Assembly (NCBI GenBank): GCA_018623135.1
Contig: JAAZVW010000009.1
Span: 1 to 42,637 of the forward strand
Source of the DNA: Pseudomonadota bacterium
GTDB lineage: Bacteria > Pseudomonadota > Alphaproteobacteria > UBA1280 > JAAZVW01
DNA: 42,637 nucleotides
Direction of reading: 5' to 3'
In this document: piece after piece, positions 1 through 41,822 of the stretch
Numbering within the stretch: the stretch's first letter is position 1
Layout of the letters: every line of letters starts with the position of its first letter
Notes under the pieces: generated by a model
The model's database searches: none
Told to the model about the DNA's origin: nothing
What the model saw: only the letters and a program-made list of their open reading frames with translations
Position numbers and translations under genes: made by a program

Positions 1-2826
1 AATGCGCTTGATACAGGCGCAGGTGGCGATGTACTTTTAATTGCCGATAAAGTAGCTGTGTACCGCAATGGCGCGCAAACGCAGGCCAAAGGTGGCGATA
101 TAAGCGGCAATGGTGGTTTTATTGAGTTTTCCGGTTACGAGCGCTTGCATGTACTAGGCGCAGGCTTTAACACCACAGGCGCAGATGGCAACGGTACTGT
201 GCTTTTTGATCCGCAGGATATTATTGTACAAACAGGTGGCGGCGGCTCTTATGCCGATGTTGACTTATTTAGTGATAATTCAGGCGTAGATATTACAATT
301 GACCCTGCAACATTAGATGCGGTTGCTGGTGATGTTGTTTTAGAAGCAACGCGTGATTTATTAATAAACGATAGCATTACATTAACGACCGCAGGTGCGA
401 GTTTTACAGGTCGTGCAAATAACAATATTACAATGGCTGTAGGTACATCAATTACCACAAACAATGGTGATATAACCTTAGCTGCCGATTATGATTTTAG
501 TGGCGCAGGTGGTGCAGCACCAGATGATGTGGGGGATGTTTCCTTAGCTAGCGGTGTTACCGTTGCTACAAATGGCGGTGATTTTACCCTAACATCAACA
601 GGCGGTAATGTGCATTTTGGATCATCGGTCGGCTTAACCACTTCTGGCGGTGATATTAGCGTTACCAAAACAAGCGGACAAATCTGGATTGATTACAATG
701 CCGTATTAAATGCAGGCACTGGTGATGTTACCTTAAATGTAACCCCTCTAAGTGGTGATTATTCTACATTAAATCTTTTTAACGATGAAATTTTTAATAA
801 CGGTTCTGTTATTGGTGAAAATCTAGATTTACGAGCGCGTAGATTAAGAGATGCAAACACAGGGTATACAGTAGGTTACACAGGCAACAACAGTATTTAT
901 ATGTTAGGTGATACCTATGGTCAGCGTAAACAGTATATGGATGGTTTACGTATTTATGCTTTAAATATTCATACACCAACACTTACATATGATAATGCGC
1001 ATAGCTTAAATGCCTTTTTGAATGTACGAAACAACCAAAGCTTTACTTTAAATACAACCTCTAATACAGATGGTTTTGGTTATATTCAATCAGCCGGTGA
1101 TTTAACCTTTAATGGTCAATTTTCTGGTACATCAACGCAGGGTGCCTTTTATGTAAGAGACAACATTTATTTTGGCGCAAATTCTTATATAGAAACAACA
1201 TCAGGTGGTTTAAGTTTGTACGACTTTAGTGCCGATACGAATAATGATGGTGTGGGTAATATTATTATGGACCCAACCAGTTACCTAAATTTAACCCGAA
1301 ATCATCTTATTTATTTTACTTTTGTAGATGAGTTTCGTGTGTCTTCTGTTACAGGCTCAAATCTAATTGGTTTGCAGCCACGCAATAATAATGCTTCTGT
1401 TATAGATAACAATGGTGCTGCAGTAAACTTTACTGGGTCACGACTTTCTGTGTCCCAAGTGTTTGGCACGCATCCGCATAGCATGTCTTTAGGCTCTCAG
1501 GCTGATGCATTAGAAACAAACATACAAACACTACGGCTTACTCAAGACACGCCAAATATTTATATTAATGAAGTAGATGATTTGTTGCTCCACCAGAAAC
1601 CGTCAACAGATTTTACAGAATTTGGCATATTAGATATTACTTTGGCTGGTAACTTGTCATCAGAAGATAACTCTTCTAATACCCTGCCTATTATATCAAG
1701 CGCAGGGGATATCAGAATAGAAAAAACCGCAGGTGATTTTATAATACCAGAAATCATAACAGATAGTGGTGATATTACCCTTATTTCTGCCAATAATTTG
1801 GATGTTACAAATATGCCAACAACCACAAGCGGTAATATTACATTGGTTGGTAACGATATTATTAACTTTAATGATGTTATAACAACAACATCAGATGTAA
1901 ACCTTACATCGGGCACACTTACGTTTGGCGGTTCTGCAGGTATTCATGCAGATAAAATCAGCCTTAATGTACCAAATTTAGTAGATGTTCAAAATGTGGT
2001 GGCAACCTCTACAGATGCCGATGCTATTACCTTGCAAAACCTTGCAAACTTTACAGATATTAACGATGGTAATGCACAAATCACAGCATCAGCGGGTGGT
2101 GTGATTATTCAAAACGCAACAGCAGCTGTTGATATGCATGTAAATTCTGCTTCGGCGGCTTTTGATAATATTCAAGGCGATTTGAATTTTGTGAATGATC
2201 AAGTGTTCTCAATAGGTAGCTCAACGGTAAATGGTCATGTTGATATTACCATGGGCGATGGCACTCCATTAGAAAGTGATGCACCAGAACTAGAATTAAT
2301 CAAAGATAATCTAGTTGTTGCCGATGGTTTTGATACCCTTGTAAACGGTGAAGATCCATTTTTTGTACCTGTAAACGATACAACAATTGTTGATGATGTG
2401 ATTAATCAAACACCAGATCGTTTGAATGATGGTTCAAAAGGTAAGCCAATTGTAACAGGGCCAACCACAGCACCAAATACAGAAGTAAGCGGACAGCCTC
2501 AAACAGAACCTGAAGGCACAACAGTAGTTGATTTAGGTGGTTTTGAGCTAGAAATAGAAGTGTCTGAAACACCAACCTCAACAGAAATCGCAGATGATAC
2601 AGTAACAGAAAATACAGATGCGAATAAACTTGCGAAGCAAGAAGATGAAGAGGTATTGGTTGCCGAAGAGGGCCAATCTGTTGAAGGAAGTGAATCAACA
2701 GTTGCCTTAGAAGTAGACGACACCTTCAAAAAACTTTTATTAGGTTTAGTGCCAGATCGTGCTCTTAATCTAAAAAATTTAAAGGCGTATTTAGAAGGTT
2801 CTATAACCGCGCGCGTGTTTAAATAA
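1..2826 (+). CDS. Filamentous-haemagglutinin-type exoprotein (TpsA), 3' part
   Basis: This is the secreted partner of a two-partner (type Vb) secretion system, probably a surface adhesin. The reading frame is open from the first base, so the N-terminal signal and TPS domain lie outside the window; the GTG at 58 is internal. The first residues are typical of FHA-like beta-helix proteins: a GGDVLLIAD stretch, GNGGFIEFSG, then GTVLFDPQDI around residues 60-75 of the visible part. Short Gly/Asp/Thr/Asn-rich strands suited to a right-handed beta-helix follow. The last ~130 residues are acidic and Glu/Thr-rich and end in a short basic helical segment. I see no CdiA-like toxin domain or immunity gene, so contact-dependent inhibition is unlikely. 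A terminator follows, and the transporter gene lies 470 bp downstream. Family assignment is strong; ligand and exact length are unknown. Confidence 0.85.
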   Translation, partial: NALDTGAGGDVLLIADKVAVYRNGAQTQAKGGDISGNGGFIEFSGYERLHVLGAGFNTTGADGNGTVLFDPQDIIVQTGGGGSYADVDLFSDNSGVDITIDPATLDAVAGDVVLEATRDLLINDSITLTTAGASFTGRANNNITMAVGTSITTNNGDITLAADYDFSGAGGAAPDDVGDVSLASGVTVATNGGDFTLTSTGGNVHFGSSVGLTTSGGDISVTKTSGQIWIDYNAVLNAGTGDVTLNVTPLSGDYSTLNLFNDEIFNNGSVIGENLDLRARRLRDANTGYTVGYTGNNSIYMLGDTYGQRKQYMDGLRIYALNIHTPTLTYDNAHSLNAFLNVRNNQSFTLNTTSNTDGFGYIQSAGDLTFNGQFSGTSTQGAFYVRDNIYFGANSYIETTSGGLSLYDFSADTNNDGVGNIIMDPTSYLNLTRNHLIYFTFVDEFRVSSVTGSNLIGLQPRNNNASVIDNNGAAVNFTGSRLSVSQVFGTHPHSMSLGSQADALETNIQTLRLTQDTPNIYINEVDDLLLHQKPSTDFTEFGILDITLAGNLSSEDNSSNTLPIISSAGDIRIEKTAGDFIIPEIITDSGDITLISANNLDVTNMPTTTSGNITLVGNDIINFNDVITTTSDVNLTSGTLTFGGSAGIHADKISLNVPNLVDVQNVVATSTDADAITLQNLANFTDINDGNAQITASAGGVIIQNATAAVDMHVNSASAAFDNIQGDLNFVNDQVFSIGSSTVNGHVDITMGDGTPLESDAPELELIKDNLVVADGFDTLVNGEDPFFVPVNDTTIVDDVINQTPDRLNDGSKGKPIVTGPTTAPNTEVSGQPQTEPEGTTVVDLGGFELEIEVSETPTSTEIADDTVTENTDANKLAKQEDEEVLVAEEGQSVEGSESTVALEVDDTFKKLLLGLVPDRALNLKNLKAYLEGSITARVFK

Positions 2827-2832
2827 AAAACT

Positions 2833-2861
2833 AAGAAGAGGTTATAAAACCTCTTCTTTTT
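2833..2861 (+). terminator. Rho-independent terminator after the exoprotein gene
   Basis: An 11-bp inverted repeat (AAGAAGAGGTT / AACCTCTTCTT) with an ATAA loop runs into a T tract just after the stop codon. It suggests that the exoprotein gene and the downstream transporter gene are at least partly separate transcripts. Confidence 0.8.
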
Positions 2862-3009
2862 ACGATGCAGATAGGACACAGTTGCTTGTTTAATCAGGTT
2901 TTAATCAAAAGAACAGGGTGTACAAGTCGCTATCTATTCAGCTAATATAATATTTTAGAGTTTTAAAACTTTAAAAAGACGAATAAAAATAAATTTAAGG
3001 AATAAATAT

Positions 3010-3279
3010 ATGCGCTATGCCTTCTATCTTGTCGCAATTCTAGGAATTATGCCAGCAATGGCCATTGCGGGAGAAGACCCAGATTTTATGGAATATGAAG
3101 CTCAAAATGAATATGAAACAGAGGGCGTATATACAACAAGTCAAGGCCGCGTTTTTATTGTAGCTGGCGATAAAGTCTACCTACGACAAACGCAAGACTT
3201 AAACGATAAACGCTTAGATTTATTAAAAAAGTATATCGACCAGCATGATCAAGAAACACTTGTGTTTAATCAACAATAG
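3010..3279 (+). CDS. Small secreted protein between exoprotein and transporter
   Basis: An 89-residue protein of no family I recognise. It has a clear signal peptide: a basic N-terminus, a hydrophobic core over residues 4-18, and a probable cleavage site after AIA at about residue 20. The mature part is ~69 residues, acidic at first (Glu/Asp/Tyr-rich), then a stretch resembling a small beta-sheet (GRVFIVAGDKVYLRQ), then a basic helix. A good ribosome binding site (AAGGA) sits 8-9 bases before the ATG. The tpsB gene starts 18 bp after its stop, so the two are probably co-transcribed. By position it could be a periplasmic helper of the exoprotein or transporter, but nothing in the sequence proves that. 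Confidence 0.75.
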   Translation: MRYAFYLVAILGIMPAMAIAGEDPDFMEYEAQNEYETEGVYTTSQGRVFIVAGDKVYLRQTQDLNDKRLDLLKKYIDQHDQETLVFNQQ

Positions 3280-3297
3280 ATAAGACTGGATAGGATA

Positions 3298-4980
3298 ATG
3301 TCTCTTAAATTAAAAGTTAGTTTAGCAAGTTTATGTTCAGTTTTGTTGGCCGTGCCTGCATATGCGCAAAGCCTTCCAGAATCTGCCCTGCCTGGCGTTC
3401 TTCAAAAAAACTTGGAGCAAATGAAGCTGCCAGAAAAAGCAAAAACATATGCACCTGAAAAACAAAAAGCCCCTCAAAAAGAAGTGCTGCAAACTAATCA
3501 GCAATTAAGTGTTGAGCTTAAAGAAATTCGTTTGTCAGGCGTTACAAAACTTGCTCAAGATGAGCTAGATCCTATTATTAAGCCATTTATTGGCAAACCT
3601 TTAACAGAGCAAATGCTTAGTGATATTAAATACGCGATAGCGTTTAAATATTTTGATAAAGGTTACATACTTATTAAAGTCTTTTCTCCGCCACAGGTTG
3701 TTTCCGACGGTATACTAGATCTTCTTGTTGTAGAAGGTCGTATCGGTAGCGTTGTTGCCCCTAATATTGAACAATCAGGCGTAAGCCAAACACTTATTGA
3801 AAACCGTATTAAAGACTTGCCTCTAGATATGGTGTTTAATCAAGATGATGTAGAAACAATTATTGCAGACTTAGATAACTTGGCAGATCTAGATGCCCGT
3901 GTGCGTTTAAGCCCAGGTCAAGAATTTGGTCGTACAAACCTAAATATTCTTCTAAGCCCTGCAGAAGATGAAGTGCAAAGCATTTACGTTAATAACCATG
4001 GTTCAAGCCTTACAGGGCAACTACAAGCCGTGGCCGATTTACAAAAAACAAACCTTTTTGGCTTAGGTGAAACACTAAGTTTTACAGGCAACATGTCTAA
4101 AGGCCGAGATTCTCAGCAATATGCATTTTCTGCTAAGTTGCCAACAGGCTACAAAGGTATTACAGCGGATGTTAGCTACCGCCAGTCGAACCAAGATATT
4201 GGTTGGTTGTTTAAAACACTTCGTTCACGTGGTGAAAGTGAAATTTTTGAAATTGCTGCAAGTAAATATCTTGTAAATACAGCACGCCGTAGTGTTAATT
4301 TACGTGGTGGTTTAACAAAACGTACGCATAGCTCAGCTATCGCCAATGTACCAGATACAAAAGATGATATTACACAGCTATTTGTGGAAGCATCTTACCT
4401 TAAACGTCGTACAAATGCGGTTATGTATGCACAAGCACGCTTAAGTCGTGATATCGCAATTTGGGGTGCAAACGATGAAAACGATATCGATGGTACACGT
4501 GCAGGTGCACAGCGCGCGCTTATTTTTGAACCAACAGTTTACTATAGCCAACGCTTAAGTAATGCTTCTAGCTTTAATGCGACAGTTCGCGGTCAAATTG
4601 CATCGCATCGTTTGCCATCTTCTAATCTATTTAGTGTTGGTGGTTATGGCTCTGTTCGTGGTTTTGAACCCTCTTACGCATCTGCAGAAGCAGGTATAAG
4701 CGCAACGTTAGAATATAAACACATGGTTTATAATAATGGTCGCGCTGTTGTAGAGGTTATCCCATTTGTGGATTGGGCTGCAATTAAAAGCCGTGTACAA
4801 GGCAGTACACCAGATAGGCATCTAAAATCAGTAGGTCTTGCGGCAGAAGCAACTTTCCGCCCATCAGAATACGCAAAAGAAATTACCTTGCGTACAGATG
4901 TTGCCACACCAATTGGTGATTATCAAAACAGTTCTTTTGAAGGTGCACGCCTATACTTTAGCTTAGGCACTAAGTTTTAA
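3298..4980 (+). CDS. TpsB outer-membrane transporter (ShlB/FhaC/HecB family)
   Basis: The outer-membrane beta-barrel that exports the upstream exoprotein. Its 560 residues match the usual 550-590 of the family. The order is signal peptide (residues 1-23, ending AYAQS); a Lys/Gln/Pro-rich linker; a POTRA region at about 73-150 (VELKEIRLSGVTKL start, EGRIGSVV near its end); a second POTRA-like segment to about 225; then a barrel of alternating strands. The Omp85/TpsB signature VRGFEP is at residues 453-458, within the loop that reaches into the barrel. The protein ends in an aromatic residue (GTKF), as outer-membrane barrels do. The start ATG follows a weak GGATA site. Pairing with the upstream FHA-like protein makes the assignment firm; substrate specificity is inferred from adjacency. 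Confidence 0.92.
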   Translation: MSLKLKVSLASLCSVLLAVPAYAQSLPESALPGVLQKNLEQMKLPEKAKTYAPEKQKAPQKEVLQTNQQLSVELKEIRLSGVTKLAQDELDPIIKPFIGKPLTEQMLSDIKYAIAFKYFDKGYILIKVFSPPQVVSDGILDLLVVEGRIGSVVAPNIEQSGVSQTLIENRIKDLPLDMVFNQDDVETIIADLDNLADLDARVRLSPGQEFGRTNLNILLSPAEDEVQSIYVNNHGSSLTGQLQAVADLQKTNLFGLGETLSFTGNMSKGRDSQQYAFSAKLPTGYKGITADVSYRQSNQDIGWLFKTLRSRGESEIFEIAASKYLVNTARRSVNLRGGLTKRTHSSAIANVPDTKDDITQLFVEASYLKRRTNAVMYAQARLSRDIAIWGANDENDIDGTRAGAQRALIFEPTVYYSQRLSNASSFNATVRGQIASHRLPSSNLFSVGGYGSVRGFEPSYASAEAGISATLEYKHMVYNNGRAVVEVIPFVDWAAIKSRVQGSTPDRHLKSVGLAAEATFRPSEYAKEITLRTDVATPIGDYQNSSFEGARLYFSLGTKF

Positions 4981-5633: not shown

Positions 5634-7346
5634 TTAACGTAGGTTAAGAAGTTCGTTAAGCATTTGGTCAACTGTAGATACAATCTTAGAGCTAGACTGA
5701 TACGCACGTTGGCTAATAATCAGGTTAGAGAACTCAGAGGCAATATCTACTGTTGATGACTCCAGCGAACCACTTTTAACAGTCGCTGTGTTACCAATAC
5801 CTGCTTCTTTAAATAACACACGTCCAGAATCATCTGTTTCTTGGAAGATGTTACCCGTAATTGCAGATAGTGAGTTAGGGTCTTGGAATACACCAATTTG
5901 CAGTTTGTATAGTTTTTTCGTTTCACCGTTTGTGAATGAACCTGTCACGAAACCTTCATCGTCAACAGATACACCCGCCAAAGTACCAGAACCGAAACCA
6001 TCTTGTGTAGAGAACAATGTGTTATATGCCGAAGCGAACTGAATCACACCATCGGTACCTACACCTGTACCAAACTCGTCTTGAATTCCAAGGTTAAAGT
6101 TAAAGGCTGTACCACCAGATGCCGCAAGCTGCGGTTGGTCTAGTGTAACAGTCATACCATTACCAAAGTTTACAACGTTTGTAATACCTGGCGTAATTGT
6201 AATTGGGCCTGCAATTGCCGCACCCGCACCGGCAGAACCGTCTTGCGCGTCATAAAGTGTTACTTCTTGCGTTGCAGAGTTATAGTCAATAGACCATGTA
6301 GAACCTGGGCCAGGGGCAATACCTTGCCATGTTGAATCTAGGTAGTCTACATATACGTCTTGCACACCATTGCCAAATGTGGCTTGTAAGTTTGTACCTG
6401 CTGTTGGCGCAGCTGCTGGGTCAACAAAACCAACAATTGGGCCTGCTGTTGTTTGTGTACCTGTGTAATCACCAAAGTCTAATGTAATTTGACCCTGTGG
6501 TACACCACCTGTCCAATCTACGTTAAACGATTGACCACCAACATAGTTCAAAGAACCATTTTCATTAAAGCGCACAGTACCGTTATGAATACGTGTATTC
6601 ACGCCCGATGTACCACCAGGTACGTTAGCACCATCTGTGTACACGGCAAAGTCCCATAAGTTTTGCGAACGCTTTACAAAAGCAACCGAAATATCTCGTG
6701 CACCACCTTGCGCATCAAAGAAACGATCATCAATCACAAAGTCAGCAAGGTTCGGGTCAGCCACAACGGCGTCTAACGAGTTTGCTAAACTTGTTGGGTC
6801 AGAATATAGATGCGGTGTTTCTGTAGATGTTAAGTTCAAACCTAGTTCTAAAGATTGTGTTGCACGTGCAGAGGCACCTACTGTTTGTAGCTCTACAGGT
6901 TCAGGGTTTTGTCGGTCAATAATTGTACCGTCAGATTCTGTACGCCAGCCCATTAAGTAGTTACCAGATGGGTGTCTCAAGAAACCACGAGAGTCTTCAC
7001 GAAAGGCACCATCACGTGAATAAAAGAATGCTGTGTCAGATGTAATATTACGTTCCGATGATAGTACAAAGAAACCGTTACCAGAAAGCGCAAGGTCTGT
7101 TGCGTTATCTGTTGCGGTTAAAGAACCTTGTACGTTTTGGTTGGTAATAACATCTGTATTTACACCACCAGAGTTAAAGGCAACGCCCGAAACACCAGCA
7201 GTTGTTACAAGTTGGTTAAATAGGGCAGAAGATGCCTTATAACCTGTTGTGTTTACGTTAGCTAAGTTATCAGAAATAACACTAATAGCTTCCGATTGGG
7301 CGTTAAGGCCCGATACACCTGTTGATAGAGATCCAAATAAACTCAT
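5634..7346 (-). CDS. flgE: Flagellar hook protein FlgE
   Basis: Forms the curved hook joining the flagellar rod to the filament; it is exported by the flagellar type III apparatus. The N-terminus (MSLFGSLSTGVSGLNAQS, then NLANVNTTGYKA) is the flagellar rod/hook N-terminal motif. The C-terminus (VDIASEFSNLIISQRAYQS) is the matching C-terminal domain, and the two form the inner coiled coil. Length is 570 residues against about 400 in E. coli; the extra length is in the Gly/Thr/Asp-rich outer domains (roughly residues 150-440). A strong GAGGAGG ribosome binding site lies 8 bases before the ATG. It is the last gene of a leftward fliK-flgD-flgE operon; flgD ends 14 bp upstream of its start. Confidence 0.95.
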   Translation of the reverse strand: MSLFGSLSTGVSGLNAQSEAISVISDNLANVNTTGYKASSALFNQLVTTAGVSGVAFNSGGVNTDVITNQNVQGSLTATDNATDLALSGNGFFVLSSERNITSDTAFFYSRDGAFREDSRGFLRHPSGNYLMGWRTESDGTIIDRQNPEPVELQTVGASARATQSLELGLNLTSTETPHLYSDPTSLANSLDAVVADPNLADFVIDDRFFDAQGGARDISVAFVKRSQNLWDFAVYTDGANVPGGTSGVNTRIHNGTVRFNENGSLNYVGGQSFNVDWTGGVPQGQITLDFGDYTGTQTTAGPIVGFVDPAAAPTAGTNLQATFGNGVQDVYVDYLDSTWQGIAPGPGSTWSIDYNSATQEVTLYDAQDGSAGAGAAIAGPITITPGITNVVNFGNGMTVTLDQPQLAASGGTAFNFNLGIQDEFGTGVGTDGVIQFASAYNTLFSTQDGFGSGTLAGVSVDDEGFVTGSFTNGETKKLYKLQIGVFQDPNSLSAITGNIFQETDDSGRVLFKEAGIGNTATVKSGSLESSTVDIASEFSNLIISQRAYQSSSKIVSTVDQMLNELLNLR

Positions 7347-7360
7347 TTAACTATCCTCCT

Positions 7361-8044
7361 CTAAAAATAACGAACGGTATCAATCTCATCTGGAGAAAGT
7401 AGACTACCGTCTTCTAGTACAAGAGAGGTCAAACCACCTCTTGTTTCAACGCCAACAGCGGTCTTAAACGTTTTTTGTTCTAACGTTACAGGGTCGCCTT
7501 CAGCATCAATTGCTTCAATTATAATTTTATATTCACCGCTTGGTTGCTGTTCGCCATCATCATTGGCACCAGCCCAACGGAATACATGTTCACCGGCTTT
7601 TACTTCACCGTTTTCTTCAAATATTTTTTCACCATCAGCATTATAAATACTAATGACTGTCTTAGCGGCTTGTCCGGCAAGTTCGTAAGTAATGTCAGAA
7701 GTCTGACCTTCGGTAAACGTGAACTTGTCTTTCATCGGCGCAAGTACTTCTGCACCTAGGTAACCTAGTAAGTCTGTTTGTGCTTGTAAGCCTGCCGCAT
7801 CAGACATTTTCTCTAGGTATTTATTACTCTGAATTTGTTGTTCTACTGCAGAATACTGGGCAATTTGGTTTGTAAACTCAGTAGGGTCTTGCGGGTTCAT
7901 CGGGTCTTGGCTTTGTACCTGTGTTACAAGTAAGTTTAAGAATGTTTCAAAGTTAATATTAGCCGCAGCAGAAGCTTCTTCTTTGCTTTTAACGACAATA
8001 TTACCGTCTCTATCTACTGCGTTTGATGGATCAAATGTAAACAT
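7361..8044 (-). CDS. flgD: Flagellar hook cap/assembly protein FlgD
   Basis: FlgD caps the growing hook and allows FlgE subunits to polymerise. The conserved N-terminal region is plain: FLNLLVTQVQSQDPMNPQDP, followed by FTNQIAQYSAVEQQIQSN. The C-terminal half holds the FlgD Ig-like/tudor region (FRWAGANDDGEQQPSGEYK). The frame is open to an ATG at 8065, but that ATG overlaps the fliK stop and has no ribosome binding site. The ATG at 8044 is preceded by AAGGAGATAAAGATA, so I place the start there, giving 227 residues, normal for the family. It lies 13 bp after fliK and is co-transcribed with it and flgE. Confidence 0.93.
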   Translation of the reverse strand: MFTFDPSNAVDRDGNIVVKSKEEASAAANINFETFLNLLVTQVQSQDPMNPQDPTEFTNQIAQYSAVEQQIQSNKYLEKMSDAAGLQAQTDLLGYLGAEVLAPMKDKFTFTEGQTSDITYELAGQAAKTVISIYNADGEKIFEENGEVKAGEHVFRWAGANDDGEQQPSGEYKIIIEAIDAEGDPVTLEQKTFKTAVGVETRGGLTSLVLEDGSLLSPDEIDTVRYF

Positions 8045-8057
8045 TATCTTTATCTCC

Positions 8058-9857
8058 TTAAACATCCATGTCCACTAAAGCGTCCGGACGTACCCATTTA
8101 TCATTTATTTGCTGTGTACTATCTAAAGCAATATCTTCTGCTTCTTCTTGGTCGTTACCATTGTTTTGGTTTTGACCTTGCTGATCTTGTTGTTGATCAT
8201 CTTCCATAACAGCAAATGTCATGTTTTCATCTTTTAGTTCAACACCAGCTTCCGCTAGTCCTTGTTGTAGTACTTTCAAGTCTCGTGCCAATTGTTCTAA
8301 AACCTCAGGATTTTTTACAGAAATTTTACCCGTGGCCAAACCTTCCTGAATATCGAGCTCAACCTCAATCTCACCTAATTCTGGCGGATTTAGGTCAATT
8401 CTAATTTTACCGCCACCTTGTTCAGCAAGGGGCTTAATAGAAAGTTTTGTTTGCTGTGCGACCTCTGCAGTTTGTGCACTCTGGCGTAATTGCTCAGAAA
8501 AAGTAGGCTGTTGTGCAGAAGGCCTCGGCAAATCTTGCTGGGTAATAATGTCACCTGTCTGTACATCAACATAAGCCATGCTACCATCTGCCTGTATTTG
8601 TGGCTGTACTTCAATGGCTGTAGGTCTTAAATTTTGTACAGGCTCAACTTTGGCTTTGGATTGGTCTGCCGCTGTTAATTGAGAGCGCTCACCTTGCCAA
8701 TCTATCTTCTGTTCAACTGGAGCACGTTGGTCTTTTCTATCGCTATAGCTAGAAGAGGTGTTTTCTTGAGATAAATCAATACCTTCTTCTGTTTTTTTAG
8801 CAGAATCCGCTGTTGCTGATTGTTCTCCAACTGTGACTTTTTCCGACTTATCTTTAGGGCTTAAAATTTGTGCTTGCTGCTGTGGGGCAATTTCTTCAGT
8901 TGCTTTTGTTGTTGCCTTGGCATCCGCTAAACTTATCGGCTCTGCTTTATTTATTTCTTCAGAAACTTTTTCACTTTGCGCCAGGGCAGGGTCTAAATCA
9001 GCTAATGAAACTTTCTTCGGCTCGTACGCTTTTATATTACGCTCTGCCATGTTTGTGTTTGCAGTTGCTTCTGCTCCGTTGTTCGGCTCGGCAGGCTTTT
9101 TCTTATTGTCTTGAGAAAGCTCAGCAATAAGTTGTTGCACAGCTTCCGAATCGGCCAAGCTTTCTTCTGTTTGCTCAGTTGTTAAAGTTGCTTGTATTTC
9201 TTCGGCAGGTTTTTGCGCAAGGTCACCTAATTCAAGCTGTTGAAATTCAGGTGCATCCATAGGTGTATCCACAAGAGGCTCTTTATTTAAGATGCGTTGT
9301 TTTAAAGTCGCTACAATTTCAGCTTCTGTGCGAACATACTTAAAGGCAGAAACCGCGCGCTGTTCTGTCCATATATCTGTTTTGGCTGTGTCTTGTGTTT
9401 CTGTATTTGTTTCAGCAAGTAGGGGAGAGGCAATAGGCTCAATTAGGCCAGATTTCATGGCTTCAATAAATTTATCCATGCGTTTTAGCATAAGATCAAC
9501 TTTATCGGCACGAGCTTTCGCTTCTGCGGGGTCTAGTCCTAATTTTATATATGCAGCTTCAAGGTCTGAAACATCTTGTAGGCTGCTTACATCTATACCG
9601 CCTTTGCTTAAAAATTGGATTTCCTCAACAGTTACCTGCATGCGTACATCTAGTGTAGCAGATGAAGAAAGTGCAGAATCAAGATTTGGTAGTTGTGCTT
9701 GACCTTCTGTTAATGGCCCAAAAAGATCACCTGTTTGACCAAGGCTAGAAAGCTCAGCAAACAAAAGTTGAAATAGGTCTAAACCAGCGTCACCGCTTTG
9801 GCCTGTAATACCTTGTACAGCGCCTTGTGGTAATTGTGGTGCAACAGATATTGTCAT
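8058..9857 (-). CDS. fliK: Flagellar hook-length control protein FliK
   Basis: A molecular ruler that is exported during hook growth and switches the export gate from hook to filament substrates. Only the C-terminal hook-length domain is conserved. It reads KIRIDLNPPELGEIEVELDI at about residues 480-500, then a helix-rich segment to about 560. The long N-terminal part is Gln/Glu/Lys/Ala-rich and low in complexity, as usual for FliK. The tail is very rich in Gln, Asp and Asn. The frame extends to 9926, but that would overlap the divergent operon; the ATG at 9857 has an AGGGAA site upstream and is taken as the start (599 residues). It is the first gene of the leftward operon, with flgD and flgE next. 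Confidence 0.88.
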   Translation of the reverse strand: MTISVAPQLPQGAVQGITGQSGDAGLDLFQLLFAELSSLGQTGDLFGPLTEGQAQLPNLDSALSSSATLDVRMQVTVEEIQFLSKGGIDVSSLQDVSDLEAAYIKLGLDPAEAKARADKVDLMLKRMDKFIEAMKSGLIEPIASPLLAETNTETQDTAKTDIWTEQRAVSAFKYVRTEAEIVATLKQRILNKEPLVDTPMDAPEFQQLELGDLAQKPAEEIQATLTTEQTEESLADSEAVQQLIAELSQDNKKKPAEPNNGAEATANTNMAERNIKAYEPKKVSLADLDPALAQSEKVSEEINKAEPISLADAKATTKATEEIAPQQQAQILSPKDKSEKVTVGEQSATADSAKKTEEGIDLSQENTSSSYSDRKDQRAPVEQKIDWQGERSQLTAADQSKAKVEPVQNLRPTAIEVQPQIQADGSMAYVDVQTGDIITQQDLPRPSAQQPTFSEQLRQSAQTAEVAQQTKLSIKPLAEQGGGKIRIDLNPPELGEIEVELDIQEGLATGKISVKNPEVLEQLARDLKVLQQGLAEAGVELKDENMTFAVMEDDQQQDQQGQNQNNGNDQEEAEDIALDSTQQINDKWVRPDALVDMDV

Positions 9858-9880
9858 AACTATAATTTCCCTGTTATACT
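9851..9880 (+). promoter_or_regulatory. Candidate promoter of the rightward flagellar export operon
   Basis: TTGTCA, a 17-18 base spacer, then TTATACT. The -10 ends 36 bp before the FlhB-like gene. The -35 overlaps the fliK start codon on the other strand, so the 58-bp divergent gap must serve both operons. Confidence 0.4.
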
Positions 9881-9915
9881 CAAATACAAATTTAATCTGC
9901 GATAAGTAATGCAAT

Positions 9916-10191
9916 ATGGATGCCAAAAATAAAAAACCTATAAAAGCGGCGGCTTTAAAATATGATAAAGAAGGCCAAGATGTACCCCGCGTGGTAGCTA
10001 AGGGTAAAGATGAAATTGCCCGCAGAATTATTGAGATTGCAGAAGAAAATGGCGTGCATATTCATAAAGATGCTGACCTTGTAGAAATTTTAGAAAAAGT
10101 AGAACTTGATGATGCGATTCCGCTAGAAGTTTATGCTGTTGTTGCAGAAATTTTTGCATATTTATATCGACTTAATAAAGAAAAGGCTTGA
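9916..10191 (+). CDS. FlhB C-terminal-domain homologue (FlhB2/YlqH type)
   Basis: A 91-residue soluble protein resembling only the cytoplasmic C-terminal domain of the export-switch protein FlhB/YscU. It opens with AALKYDKEGQDVPRVVAKGK, then IARRIIEIAEENGVHI, a DLVEILEKVELDDAIP segment and the closing helix VYAVVAEIFAYLY. All are typical of the part of FlhB after the autocleavage site. The NPTH cleavage motif and the four membrane helices are absent. Stand-alone copies like this occur beside flagellar genes in several bacteria and can contribute to substrate-specificity switching. Divergence from fliK, its functional partner in switching, fits that role. Confident for the family, inferential for the role. 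Confidence 0.88.
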   Translation: MDAKNKKPIKAAALKYDKEGQDVPRVVAKGKDEIARRIIEIAEENGVHIHKDADLVEILEKVELDDAIPLEVYAVVAEIFAYLYRLNKEKA

Positions 10192-22986: not shown

Positions 22987-23727
22987 TTAAGCGGCGTCGG
23001 TTGCTTTTGTTTTTAGGTAGCGTTGCATAAGTTGGTTAAAGTTACCTAGAGAAAGGAGATGTGTGTGAATAAGGAAAAGCAGACCAGATTTGTTGAGTTC
23101 GGCTACTTTTTCTGCTTCTAGATTTTTAAGTTTATCTTCATCTACAATGCGCATGCCACGTAGGGTAATTTTTTCACCATTACCAAGTTCAAAGTGGCCT
23201 TCGATATCTTTAAACAAATCAAATTCAGCAAGCTTTTTAACCATAAGGTCAGAAAGAGCAACTTCCTTTTGTACTTCTTTAAAGAAGTTTAGCAGGTTTT
23301 TTGTTGTTTCTGTTTGTTCGCCTTTTTTATCAAACAAAGCTTCGCCTTTAATTTTGGCACCAATGCATTTGGCTGTTTTATCAAAACATAGGGCGTAGTC
23401 CGTCGCATCTTTGTTAGCGCGTGCCAGAATAAAAGGGTACTGCCTTAGTGTTGCTGGCATGTAGTTGCCTGTCCATTTACCATCTTGTAAAAATAGGTTT
23501 TGGCTATCTTTAACGGCCATGGCAACAACGGCTTCGAGGCCGCCTTCTGCGTTTTTAGCGAATATGATAGGCATGTCGCGGCAAACTTGTGGAAATTCGC
23601 TTGGTAGAACTTGTGTGTTGCTCCATTTTTCTGCGAATTCTGCTTTATCTAGGGGTGCGAGTTTGTAGTTTTTATGTGTTTCGGCGTTAAGAACCTCTAG
23701 ATTGTCAATAAAGTTTGTAGCTGTCAT
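22987..23727 (-). CDS. SapC family protein
   Basis: 246 residues matching the SapC family, named after a gene of the Campylobacter surface-array locus but widespread in Proteobacteria, where its function is unknown. Visible family features: LNAETHKNYKL near the N-terminus, the DMPIIFAKN segment, and WTGNYMPATLRQYPFILA, close to the conserved YIPAYLRRYPF. The end is IHTHLLSLGNFNQLMQRYL. There is no signal peptide or membrane helix. It is convergent with the M16C gene and has its own transcript. Confidence 0.85.
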   Translation of the reverse strand: MTATNFIDNLEVLNAETHKNYKLAPLDKAEFAEKWSNTQVLPSEFPQVCRDMPIIFAKNAEGGLEAVVAMAVKDSQNLFLQDGKWTGNYMPATLRQYPFILARANKDATDYALCFDKTAKCIGAKIKGEALFDKKGEQTETTKNLLNFFKEVQKEVALSDLMVKKLAEFDLFKDIEGHFELGNGEKITLRGMRIVDEDKLKNLEAEKVAELNKSGLLFLIHTHLLSLGNFNQLMQRYLKTKATDAA

Positions 23728-38964: not shown

Positions 38965-38993
38965 AAACGTGCTTTAAAAAGCACATGCTTATG

Positions 38994-39022
38994 AAAAGAC
39001 GGCCTTAAGGCCGTCTTTTTTT
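38994..39022 (+). terminator. Terminator after rpoC
   Basis: AAAAGACGGCC / GGCCGTCTTTTTTT with a TTAA loop. A smaller hairpin, GTGCTTT / AAAGCAC, lies just before it (about 38969-38984). Confidence 0.88.
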
Positions 39023-39097: not shown

Positions 39098-40105
39098 ATG
39101 AAGTTTTGGCTATTTATAATTTTATTAAGTGTGAGTGCAACTGCTTATGCAGAGCCTAAAGCGATGAATGTAAAGGATTTGGTTCAGCAAGTTTTGGCTG
39201 AAAAAGAAGTTGATCCGAGACTTATTGCCGAGGCTGCTGAGCGCGAAGAAAAAGCAAATTATTCTACAAAAAATCCTGATAAAACAGAAGGTAAGGGCTT
39301 TAATTTTTTTGGGTTATTTGGTGGTTCTGATAAAAACAAAGTGGTTGAAGACTCTAGAAAATTTATTGAGACAGAAGATTTCCGTAAGTTACCGCAATCA
39401 GTTCAAGAAAAAGTACGTCAAGAATTAGAAAAAGCTCAAAAAGAAGCGAAAAATTCTAGAGATAATAAAAATCCATCTAAACCATATACAACAGGTCAGA
39501 AAGGTAATGCTAAAGACAAAGCTACAGTAGCTGGCCGTGTAAAAGTAATTGAGATTTCTAATGAAAAATTAAATATGCAACGTTATTTAGATGGTACGCA
39601 AGATTTAGAGGATTTACGTGCAGAGCTTGCGAATATGTTGGCCATGTTAAAGAGCCAAGTGACATCAACAGAATCGGCAGTGAATCTTGAACGCACAAAA
39701 CTAAGGTCATTAGAGTCACGTGCAAGGAACTTGTATAACCAGATGACAGGTATTCAAAACTCTAAGAATTCATTAAATAATCGTTATCAGAATGCGCAAC
39801 GTCGTTTAGCTGCGATTAATGCAGAAAAACAACGCCGTGCAGAGGCGGCAAGGCTGGCAGCAGAAGCTGCACGAAAAGCGGCTGAAGCGGCAGCTAAGCC
39901 TAGTGGTACAACTTCTGGCACAAAGAAATATTGCTCAGCATCTGCAAGGCGTTCTGTTGAAGCGCAACCTGCAGCTTGTTTGTTAACGGCTGTGGCACAC
40001 GGGCGTACATCAGGAGCCTGTGAAAGTAGGGCTTTAGGTAGCTGTGCTTATTTATGTAATAATGGCGTTTGGGTAAAGATGCGTAATGACTGTGAGTATG
40101 ATTAG
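39098..40105 (+). CDS. Secreted coiled-coil protein with C-terminal Cys/Trp motif
   Basis: 335 residues of no family I recognise. A signal peptide covers residues 1-19 (cleavage near AYAEP). The mature protein begins with Glu/Lys-rich helical segments and a Gly/Phe patch (FNFFGLFGGSDKN). A charged Lys/Asn linker follows, then a long coiled coil over about residues 165-265 (DLEDLRAELANMLAMLKSQV onward, ending in Ala/Glu/Arg repeats). The last ~60 residues form a small six-Cys domain ending in CAYLCNNGVW (nt 40043-40072), a motif shared with the third gene of the cluster. It is followed with zero gap by the next gene. The composition suggests a periplasmic or surface fibrous protein; the role is unknown. 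Confidence 0.75.
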   Translation: MKFWLFIILLSVSATAYAEPKAMNVKDLVQQVLAEKEVDPRLIAEAAEREEKANYSTKNPDKTEGKGFNFFGLFGGSDKNKVVEDSRKFIETEDFRKLPQSVQEKVRQELEKAQKEAKNSRDNKNPSKPYTTGQKGNAKDKATVAGRVKVIEISNEKLNMQRYLDGTQDLEDLRAELANMLAMLKSQVTSTESAVNLERTKLRSLESRARNLYNQMTGIQNSKNSLNNRYQNAQRRLAAINAEKQRRAEAARLAAEAARKAAEAAAKPSGTTSGTKKYCSASARRSVEAQPAACLLTAVAHGRTSGACESRALGSCAYLCNNGVWVKMRNDCEYD

Positions 40106-40123
40106 ATGATAGGGATGAAGAAA

Positions 40124-40507
40124 ATGAAAAAATATTATGTTGTTTTGATTGCTGTTTTTGTCCTTGTATTTTCACCTGTTGTTTATGCACAGCAAGTTAT
40201 GGGTGGCGGTGTAAATGATTTATCTAATAACGAGATTATGAACAAGAATAGAAGTTCGGATTTACAAGGTAAATTTACAGATTTTGAAAATAGTATTAAT
40301 CAGCAAAAAACGGCAATTGAAGCAGCAGAGGCTGACAATGCTGCTAATCTTGCAAATGCACGTGGTCGTATTAATGGCTATGAATCTAGGTTGAATCAGG
40401 TGGAGTCGCGTATGAATGCTATGCGAAGTCAAATTTCTGCAGGTGGGCGTACAATGTCTTTGATTGAGGCAAAGCTTAAGCAAATGGAAATTAGCTTAGG
40501 TTTATAG
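40124..40507 (+). CDS. Small secreted coiled-coil protein
   Basis: About 127 residues, unrecognised. A strong signal peptide (residues 1-22, ending VYAQQ) precedes a mature domain that is almost wholly helical, with Asn/Gln/Ala-rich heptads (QQKTAIEAAEADNAANLANA, RINGYESRLNQVESRMNAM). There are no Cys in the mature part, unlike its neighbours. The frame also has ATGs at 40106 (directly after the previous stop) and 40115; I prefer 40124 because AGGG lies 9 bases upstream. It is probably co-transcribed with, and perhaps an assembly partner of, the proteins on either side. Confidence 0.7.
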   Translation: MKKYYVVLIAVFVLVFSPVVYAQQVMGGGVNDLSNNEIMNKNRSSDLQGKFTDFENSINQQKTAIEAAEADNAANLANARGRINGYESRLNQVESRMNAMRSQISAGGRTMSLIEAKLKQMEISLGL

Positions 40508-40526
40508 GCAGAAGAGGGGTAATGAC

Positions 40527-41822
40527 ATGATTAAATTAAGTTTATCTTTACTAGGGTTTGCGTTTATAGCATCCTCTGCTTTTGCTCAGCAAAAAGTTGA
40601 GGAGACCGTACAAGATTTTACATCTGGGGAATCTAAAACAAAGTTCCAACATAATCAACTGGAAGCAACCTTTAAATTTTTACAGGATGATTTTGCAAAT
40701 CGTGCTGGTGATATTAATACTAAAATTACCCAGACAAGGCAGAGTTTACAAGGGCTTGCTACAGATGAGGTTTCGGTGAATAATCGTATATCAGCAGCAG
40801 AGGGTAGGGCGAGTTCAGTCGGTTCTTCTGTATCTTCTCTGATTAACTCTATTAATGCGTTGGCGAGCCAATTGGGTATTGGTTCTCAAGGGCGAGATCA
40901 GGCATTGCTTAATCGTATTGATCAATGGTATCAGACGAATGCTTGTCGACCAGCAGATACTTCAGGTAAAAATTATTGGCACGATAAATATCAAGATATA
41001 GGTGAAGAAATTTGGACGCATATGAACTTTATTGTTCAACGTGATGGCCCAGACGGTACAGATTGCGATTGCTTATATAATAACAGAAACAGAAGTGCCG
41101 CTTATATGGAAGACTTTAATGCAAAATGTGGCAACTTATCTGCTTGCCCGCAGGTTGCACGTGGTACTGTTTATACAGCGAATGATGATGATAATAATAG
41201 ATTGCTTAAGCCGTTGTTTTCGGTGAATCATGGTCAGTCAGGCTCTGTTTCCGTTTCGGACGACGGTACTGTGAAGACAGAATCTTTTTCCTGTAAAAAT
41301 GGTGTATGGATGCTGGGTTCGCAGGCTGCACGCTGGAGAGCTGCCGCATGTACAGATCAATCTGGTACAGCATTTACAGTTAGTGAAAAAGCGGATCGTA
41401 TTAAATCTTCATTTGGCGGTGGCACGTTTATTAGAGCTAAAGGTGCGCCTTTCCCAATTGGTAATTATATGAATGAAGTCGTTTGTCAGGCTTCTGGTTG
41501 GGTCGATATTGAAGTGCCTAAAAAAGCTTGTGCTGCTGGTAATGCTACAGTTTCTATTGGCGGCGCTGTTGCGGGTGCGCCAATAGGAAACTATACGGCT
41601 AAGCTCTCTGGTGCAAATCATGGAGGTGTTGTTACAAGCTCTTGCGAATATAAGCTTGCTTGTATGACAGAGAATAATTACCATATCGCGCGTTACAGTA
41701 GTTGTTCGTTTTCTTGTAATGATGGCACTTGGGCGTTGAAATCAGCGTCTGGGCAATCTATTGTAAGAAAATGTAAAGCGATGAATATGAATATAGACCT
41801 TGGAATCGATTTAGGATTTTAA
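40527..41822 (+). CDS. Secreted coiled-coil protein with two Cys/Gly/Trp modules
   Basis: 431 residues, unrecognised. Signal peptide at 1-20 (cleavage near AFAQQ). A helical, Gln/Ser-rich coiled coil spans about residues 22-120. The remainder is a Cys-rich, Gly/Asn-rich domain with beta-type composition. It contains ESFSCKNGVW (nt 41280-41309) and CSFSCNDGTW (nt 41703-41732), matching the motif at the end of the first gene. A GAPFPIGNY / GAPIGNY pair suggests an internal duplication. Such G-x-W cysteine motifs resemble those near the ends of some pilus-tip or fibre adhesins, but I cannot claim homology. The start ATG is preceded by AGAGGGGTAATGAC. A strong terminator closes the cluster. Confidence 0.75.
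   Translation: MIKLSLSLLGFAFIASSAFAQQKVEETVQDFTSGESKTKFQHNQLEATFKFLQDDFANRAGDINTKITQTRQSLQGLATDEVSVNNRISAAEGRASSVGSSVSSLINSINALASQLGIGSQGRDQALLNRIDQWYQTNACRPADTSGKNYWHDKYQDIGEEIWTHMNFIVQRDGPDGTDCDCLYNNRNRSAAYMEDFNAKCGNLSACPQVARGTVYTANDDDNNRLLKPLFSVNHGQSGSVSVSDDGTVKTESFSCKNGVWMLGSQAARWRAAACTDQSGTAFTVSEKADRIKSSFGGGTFIRAKGAPFPIGNYMNEVVCQASGWVDIEVPKKACAAGNATVSIGGAVAGAPIGNYTAKLSGANHGGVVTSSCEYKLACMTENNYHIARYSSCSFSCNDGTWALKSASGQSIVRKCKAMNMNIDLGIDLGF

Follow-up and report, generated by a model that had tools for sequence, protein, structure and literature searches.

On sequence grounds, the three collinear genes that lie 3' of rpoC and 5' of rpsL in the analysed stretch of DNA (the window; 42,637 nucleotides) are a single transcription unit of predicted secreted, paralogous modular proteins, here called P1, P2 and P3 (Table 1). 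We consider it rather probable that this trio constitutes a modular secreted unit of stalk plus variable head, an adhesin-like surface fibre with heads that are swapped between clusters and between lineages. Membership of the trio in a recurring family is well supported by the profile comparisons described below, and the family itself probably consists of adhesive surface fibres.

Table 1. Features of the trio locus, and related clusters in other genomes
Feature	Position	Strand	Size and composition
Intrinsic terminator after rpoC	38993-39020	+	-19 kcal/mol, z -4.08
P1	39098-40105	+	335 aa; signal peptide (1-18), then a linker rich in K and E, a coil with heptad periodicity (residues ~150-262) and a Cys module at the C terminus that ends CEYD
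P1 C-terminal Cys module	39926-40102	+	59 aa; has homologues among the repeats of contig-end genes L008 and L009 and in large UBA2136-type proteins
C-x3-C-x2-G-x-W motif, P1	40043-40072		
P2	40106-40507	+	133 aa; signal peptide followed by a helix; Cys-free; N terminus of mature form QQVMGGGV
P3	40527-41822	+	431 aa; signal peptide, then a helical stretch (residues ~30-138), a middle part rich in Cys and a beta domain at the C terminus that ends IDLGF
Motif variant ESFSCKNGVW, P3	41280-41309		
P3 C-terminal domain	41499-41819	+	residues 325-431; common to the 258-aa C26 paralogue; predicted all-beta
C-x3-C-x2-G-x-W motif, P3	41703-41732		
Intrinsic terminator after P3	41851-41890	+	-17.7 kcal/mol, z -4.30
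L088 trio, UBA2136			190/120/821 aa
L089 trio, UBA2136			817/195/123 aa
L109 trio, UBA2136 congener	downstream of era, same site as L088 trio		130/132/796 aa
L143 trio, same-order genome G005			483/142/135 aa
L142, same-order genome G005			five tandem genes

The three reading frames are closely packed. The P1 stop codon (40103-40105) is followed at once by an ATG (gap of 0 bp), and 19 bp separate P2 from P3. GAGGGG lies 7 bases 5' of the P3 ATG, and the ATG at 40124, with AGGG 9 bases 5' of it, is a possible true start of P2. The hairpins on either side were each more stable than all of their shuffles (0 of 200 as good). Sec-type signal peptides were clear by inspection in all three proteins (AYA/E, VYA/QQ and AFA/QQ, the slash marking cleavage), and the mature N termini that follow these AxA-type signals are hydrophilic. 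The consecutive ORFs, signal peptides, tight spacing and flanking terminators described in an earlier note on this DNA are thus all as it stated. The GC content of the interval (0.38 to 0.41) is slightly below that of rpoC (0.41 to 0.44), and a sharp foreign signature was not seen. Elsewhere in the window, FlgE-like and FliK-like flagellar genes lie on the minus strand (5634-9926), and therefore the organism is probably motile; a SapC-family gene (22987-23727; Pfam E 7.5e-65) lies directly 5' of tuf.

The location had struck the earlier note as odd, being among the most conserved intervals of bacterial genomes. The survey of relatives that it had proposed speaks against this view: the gap between rpoC and rpsL is about 0.3 kb at its shortest and 4.7 kb at its longest, and unrelated genes are often found in it, among them a CysQ/SuhB-like gene (named by eye) in genome G002. 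Likewise, tusDCB is inserted between rpoBC and str in Gammaproteobacteria (PMC8046335). Insertions are tolerated at this site, which lies between two operons. In genome G001, rpoC and rpsL are on separate contigs, and pilin-like genes (named by eye) adjoin both. In family f2 of the same order, repeated pilin-like genes (GAMFGLDARIALAIFGALSVISGAALYSAI) adjoin rpoC, rpsL and rpsI (L078 729-5063, L079 810-1415, L077 6957-7556), and one of them neighbours an 899-aa ankyrin/protease-like gene (named by eye).

The assessment of the helical parts depended on a crude test of heptad periodicity, in which each protein was compared with 1000 shuffles. Periodicity was significant for P1 (reached by 20 shuffles), marginal for P3 (71) and absent from P2 (261). 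Hence, the long coiled coil that had been assigned to each protein is firm for P1 alone, because only there is the periodicity significant. An AlphaFold model of full-length P3 was poor (pLDDT 42), and a PDB search with it was uninformative. The cropped C-terminal domain gave an all-beta model (pLDDT 78, pTM 0.62) for which no fold match was found in the PDB or among the viral models of BFVD.

The Cys modules of P1 and P3 are related yet separate domains. Genome-wide, the exact DNA pattern of their motif occurs at the two sites of the trio, in one paralogue and at one site on contig C9 that we regard as chance, since an unrelated 390-aa ORF occupies the other strand there. So that the test would not be circular, the HMM of the module was built without P1 or P3, from six modules of other proteins, of which three belong to other genomes. 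This independent profile scored P1 at 35.7 bits (E 4e-13), P3 at 10.3 bits (E 3.5e-5) and the C26 paralogue at 10.9 bits, and none of 420 background ORFs or 500 shuffles of these three proteins did as well. The shared modules of the earlier note therefore hold as motifs, and their relatedness survives an independent profile test, but they are not one domain. P2 carries no Cys module. A middle subunit free of Cys, as described in that note, is specific to this cluster, the small subunits of other trios carrying Cys.

All three proteins have partial relatives in the same genome; the N terminus of P1 did not score with the family N-terminal profile. Over its last ~100 residues, P3 is matched by a secreted protein of 258 aa from a solo gene on contig C26 (47% identity across 101 aa, E 9.5e-19), and both proteins terminate in I-x-LGF. 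Weak matches of this paralogue in other genomes were rejected, one (G304) because a 1007-aa ORF of the opposite strand encloses it and the others (G101, G204, G265) because they contain internal stops. The P1 module matches repeats of long Cys-rich genes that run off contigs C30 and C47; one of these genes ends CEWD. Long Cys-repeat genes at L008 6079-7758 and L009 6124-6972 break at contig ends, and one of them may continue a fragment on C61. The mature N terminus of P2 is akin to those of three more secreted proteins (on C26, C30 and C61), and an HMM of own-genome N termini gave P2 13.5 bits versus 5.9 for the best of 420 background ORFs. The N-terminal score of P3 (7.6) is not clearly above those of unrelated coils. 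With the cross-genome N-terminal profile, tested against the same number of background ORFs, an ATP-synthase b-like coil reached 14.3, higher than P2 and P3, and we discount those two scores as proof. A further stalk protein of this genome (L149 1-749) is truncated by a contig end; the LamG/concanavalin-like head that we suspected in it by eye was unsupported by Pfam at 0.01 or by a PDB sequence search.

None of the three proteins had a match at or above the curated cut-offs of Pfam or NCBIfam, TSP1, H-type lectin and Hint domains included, or a credible match in PHROGs, PDB sequences, or phage or plasmid collections; only sub-threshold, coil-type matches appeared. Searches with P3 by tblastn in phages and plasmids found nothing, nor did a scan of viral contigs and GTDB contigs at the sensitivity used, and direct P3 homologues were not found in 59 other relatives' genomes. 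When three relatives were searched by tblastn in plasmids, the sole match was a Hint domain. A literature search for a family of stalk plus head found nothing. The profile search suggested by the earlier note thus brought up no characterised family that claims the three proteins, and its statement that no family could be recognised is correct for the databases, but relatives do exist both in the same genome and across genomes.

Among 385 genomes of the class, a 52-position profile of the module found only the window's own genome and a UBA2136 genome (G087; E 1.8e-9). The two UBA2136 trios L088 and L089 carry the Cys module, and all their proteins have signal peptides, short coils and Cys. A profile of the N-terminal stalk, a coil closed by two invariant Cys (C-x(5-13)-C in 16 aligned members, including one on the genome's own C61), matched 12 of the 385 genomes, including two more of the window's order. 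In a sample of 399 genomes of the phylum it matched only the window's own genome, and the family therefore seems to be unevenly scattered and to centre on Alphaproteobacteria with small genomes. Its genes form clusters of two to five in tandem, as pairs in genome G201, and the trios include a small subunit of 119 to 142 aa, a layout into which the window's trio fits. The closing Cys pair is absent from P2 and P3 in the alignment; the trio is therefore a divergent branch, tied to the family by its head modules and its own-genome paralogues.

The stalks of these relatives bear a variety of heads, namely TSP1 repeats (3e-43), H-type lectin (H_lectin, 7.5e-9) and Hint (2.7e-8; C-terminal in two relatives from trio or tandem clusters), and collagen-like or fibre-like heads are also seen. 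A surface fibre fits the TSP1, H-type lectin and Hint heads on related stalks. Each protein is a predicted Sec substrate with cleavage after A-x-A, and the Cys heads of P1 and P3 would fold oxidatively in the periplasm and be stabilised by disulphides. Probably, the helical stalks associate via their coils, with the small subunit P2 acting as stalk, spacer or linker partner, and the Cys-rich beta heads of P1 and P3 are displayed on the outside of the cell, where they would bind a surface, a cell or a polymer. The periplasmic or surface fibre of paralogous subunits envisaged in the earlier note agrees with secretion, modularity, recurring trios and fitting heads, but its assembly and surface location are what we infer.

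Neither a route of export across the outer membrane nor an anchor was found for the trio, and the proteins might instead stay in the periplasm as structural components, their Cys heads binding parts of the envelope. This would be consistent with signals for Sec only, with the lack of an adjoining outer-membrane export partner and with the weak coil similarity that P2 shows to proteins of the envelope, among them an Lpp-type lipoprotein (E 0.0077, well short of the cut-off). However, the TSP1, H-type lectin and collagen- or fibre-like heads on related stalks point to targets outside the cell, and the heads differ strongly between clusters, so that we regard a purely periplasmic role as unlikely. 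A bolder interpretation, which we advance tentatively, is that the trio belongs to an undescribed multi-subunit secreted surface apparatus, a stalk of three proteins of which one is small and whose heads (Cys modules, TSP1, lectin, Hint) can be interchanged. Such an apparatus would have spread across alphaproteobacterial orders, with duplication and the swapping of heads as the sources of its diversity.

Less probable still is a role for the proteins at the tip, or as minor subunits, of a pilus for type IV secretion or conjugation, VirB5- or PilV-like, with a coil and an exchangeable adhesin head. PilV-type adhesins also have variable C termini, and two relatives have suggestive neighbours: L114 adjoins a gene for a VirD4-like coupling protein and L111 lies near a VirB2-like gene (both named by eye). 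At the former locus (156-3304, genome G381), both the stalk protein and a protein with a TSP1-like motif (both seen by eye) adjoin the coupling protein gene. However, the other clusters examined, including that of the window, lie among housekeeping genes, and secretion genes were not recognised nearby. Furthermore, the trio has no Pfam match to pilin and none to VirB5 at E 1, and a prepilin cleavage motif with a hydrophobic mature N-terminal helix is absent. That the trio encodes secreted interbacterial effectors, with heads as cargo and a fragment set free from the Hint relatives in the manner of polymorphic toxin systems, is very improbable: two relatives do end in Hint and a two-partner secretion transporter is present in the window, but Hint is the last domain and no toxin follows it, neither a toxin domain nor an immunity-like gene was seen, and the trio itself lacks Hint. 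The transporter gene (ShlB/FhaC type, 3298-4980) follows a large ORF (1-2826) whose 5' end is outside the window and which has no Pfam match at 1e-5; nothing ties the transporter to the trio.

In summary, a seemingly orphan cluster can be tied to an unnamed, recurrent type of gene cluster of poorly cultured Alphaproteobacteria, which supplies a family definition missing from profile libraries. Its related heads include types better known from animals, such as TSP1 repeats and H-type lectins, as well as autoprocessing Hint domains, and the family gives a handle on possible attachment to hosts or other cells.

Compared with known systems, P2 resembles the VirB5-type pilus-tip proteins in its plan, being small, secreted and helical, but VirB5 belongs in a VirB/Tra operon, whereas the trio has rpoC and rpsL as neighbours and no adjacent secretion genes. 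TSP1-repeat and H-type lectin proteins (PF19030, PF00090, PF09458) correspond to heads found on related stalks elsewhere, and proteins with a C-terminal Hint or Vint domain (PF05203, PF14623, PF07591) to the two relatives that end in Hint; the trio proteins match neither group. The variable-tip adhesins and fibre proteins of the PilV type with C-x-x-G-x-W ends seem to resemble the trio in being secreted and in combining a helical N-terminal part with exchangeable C..G.W heads, but they have a prepilin signal, whereas the trio has Sec signal peptides cleaved at AxA and is organised as a three-gene cluster.
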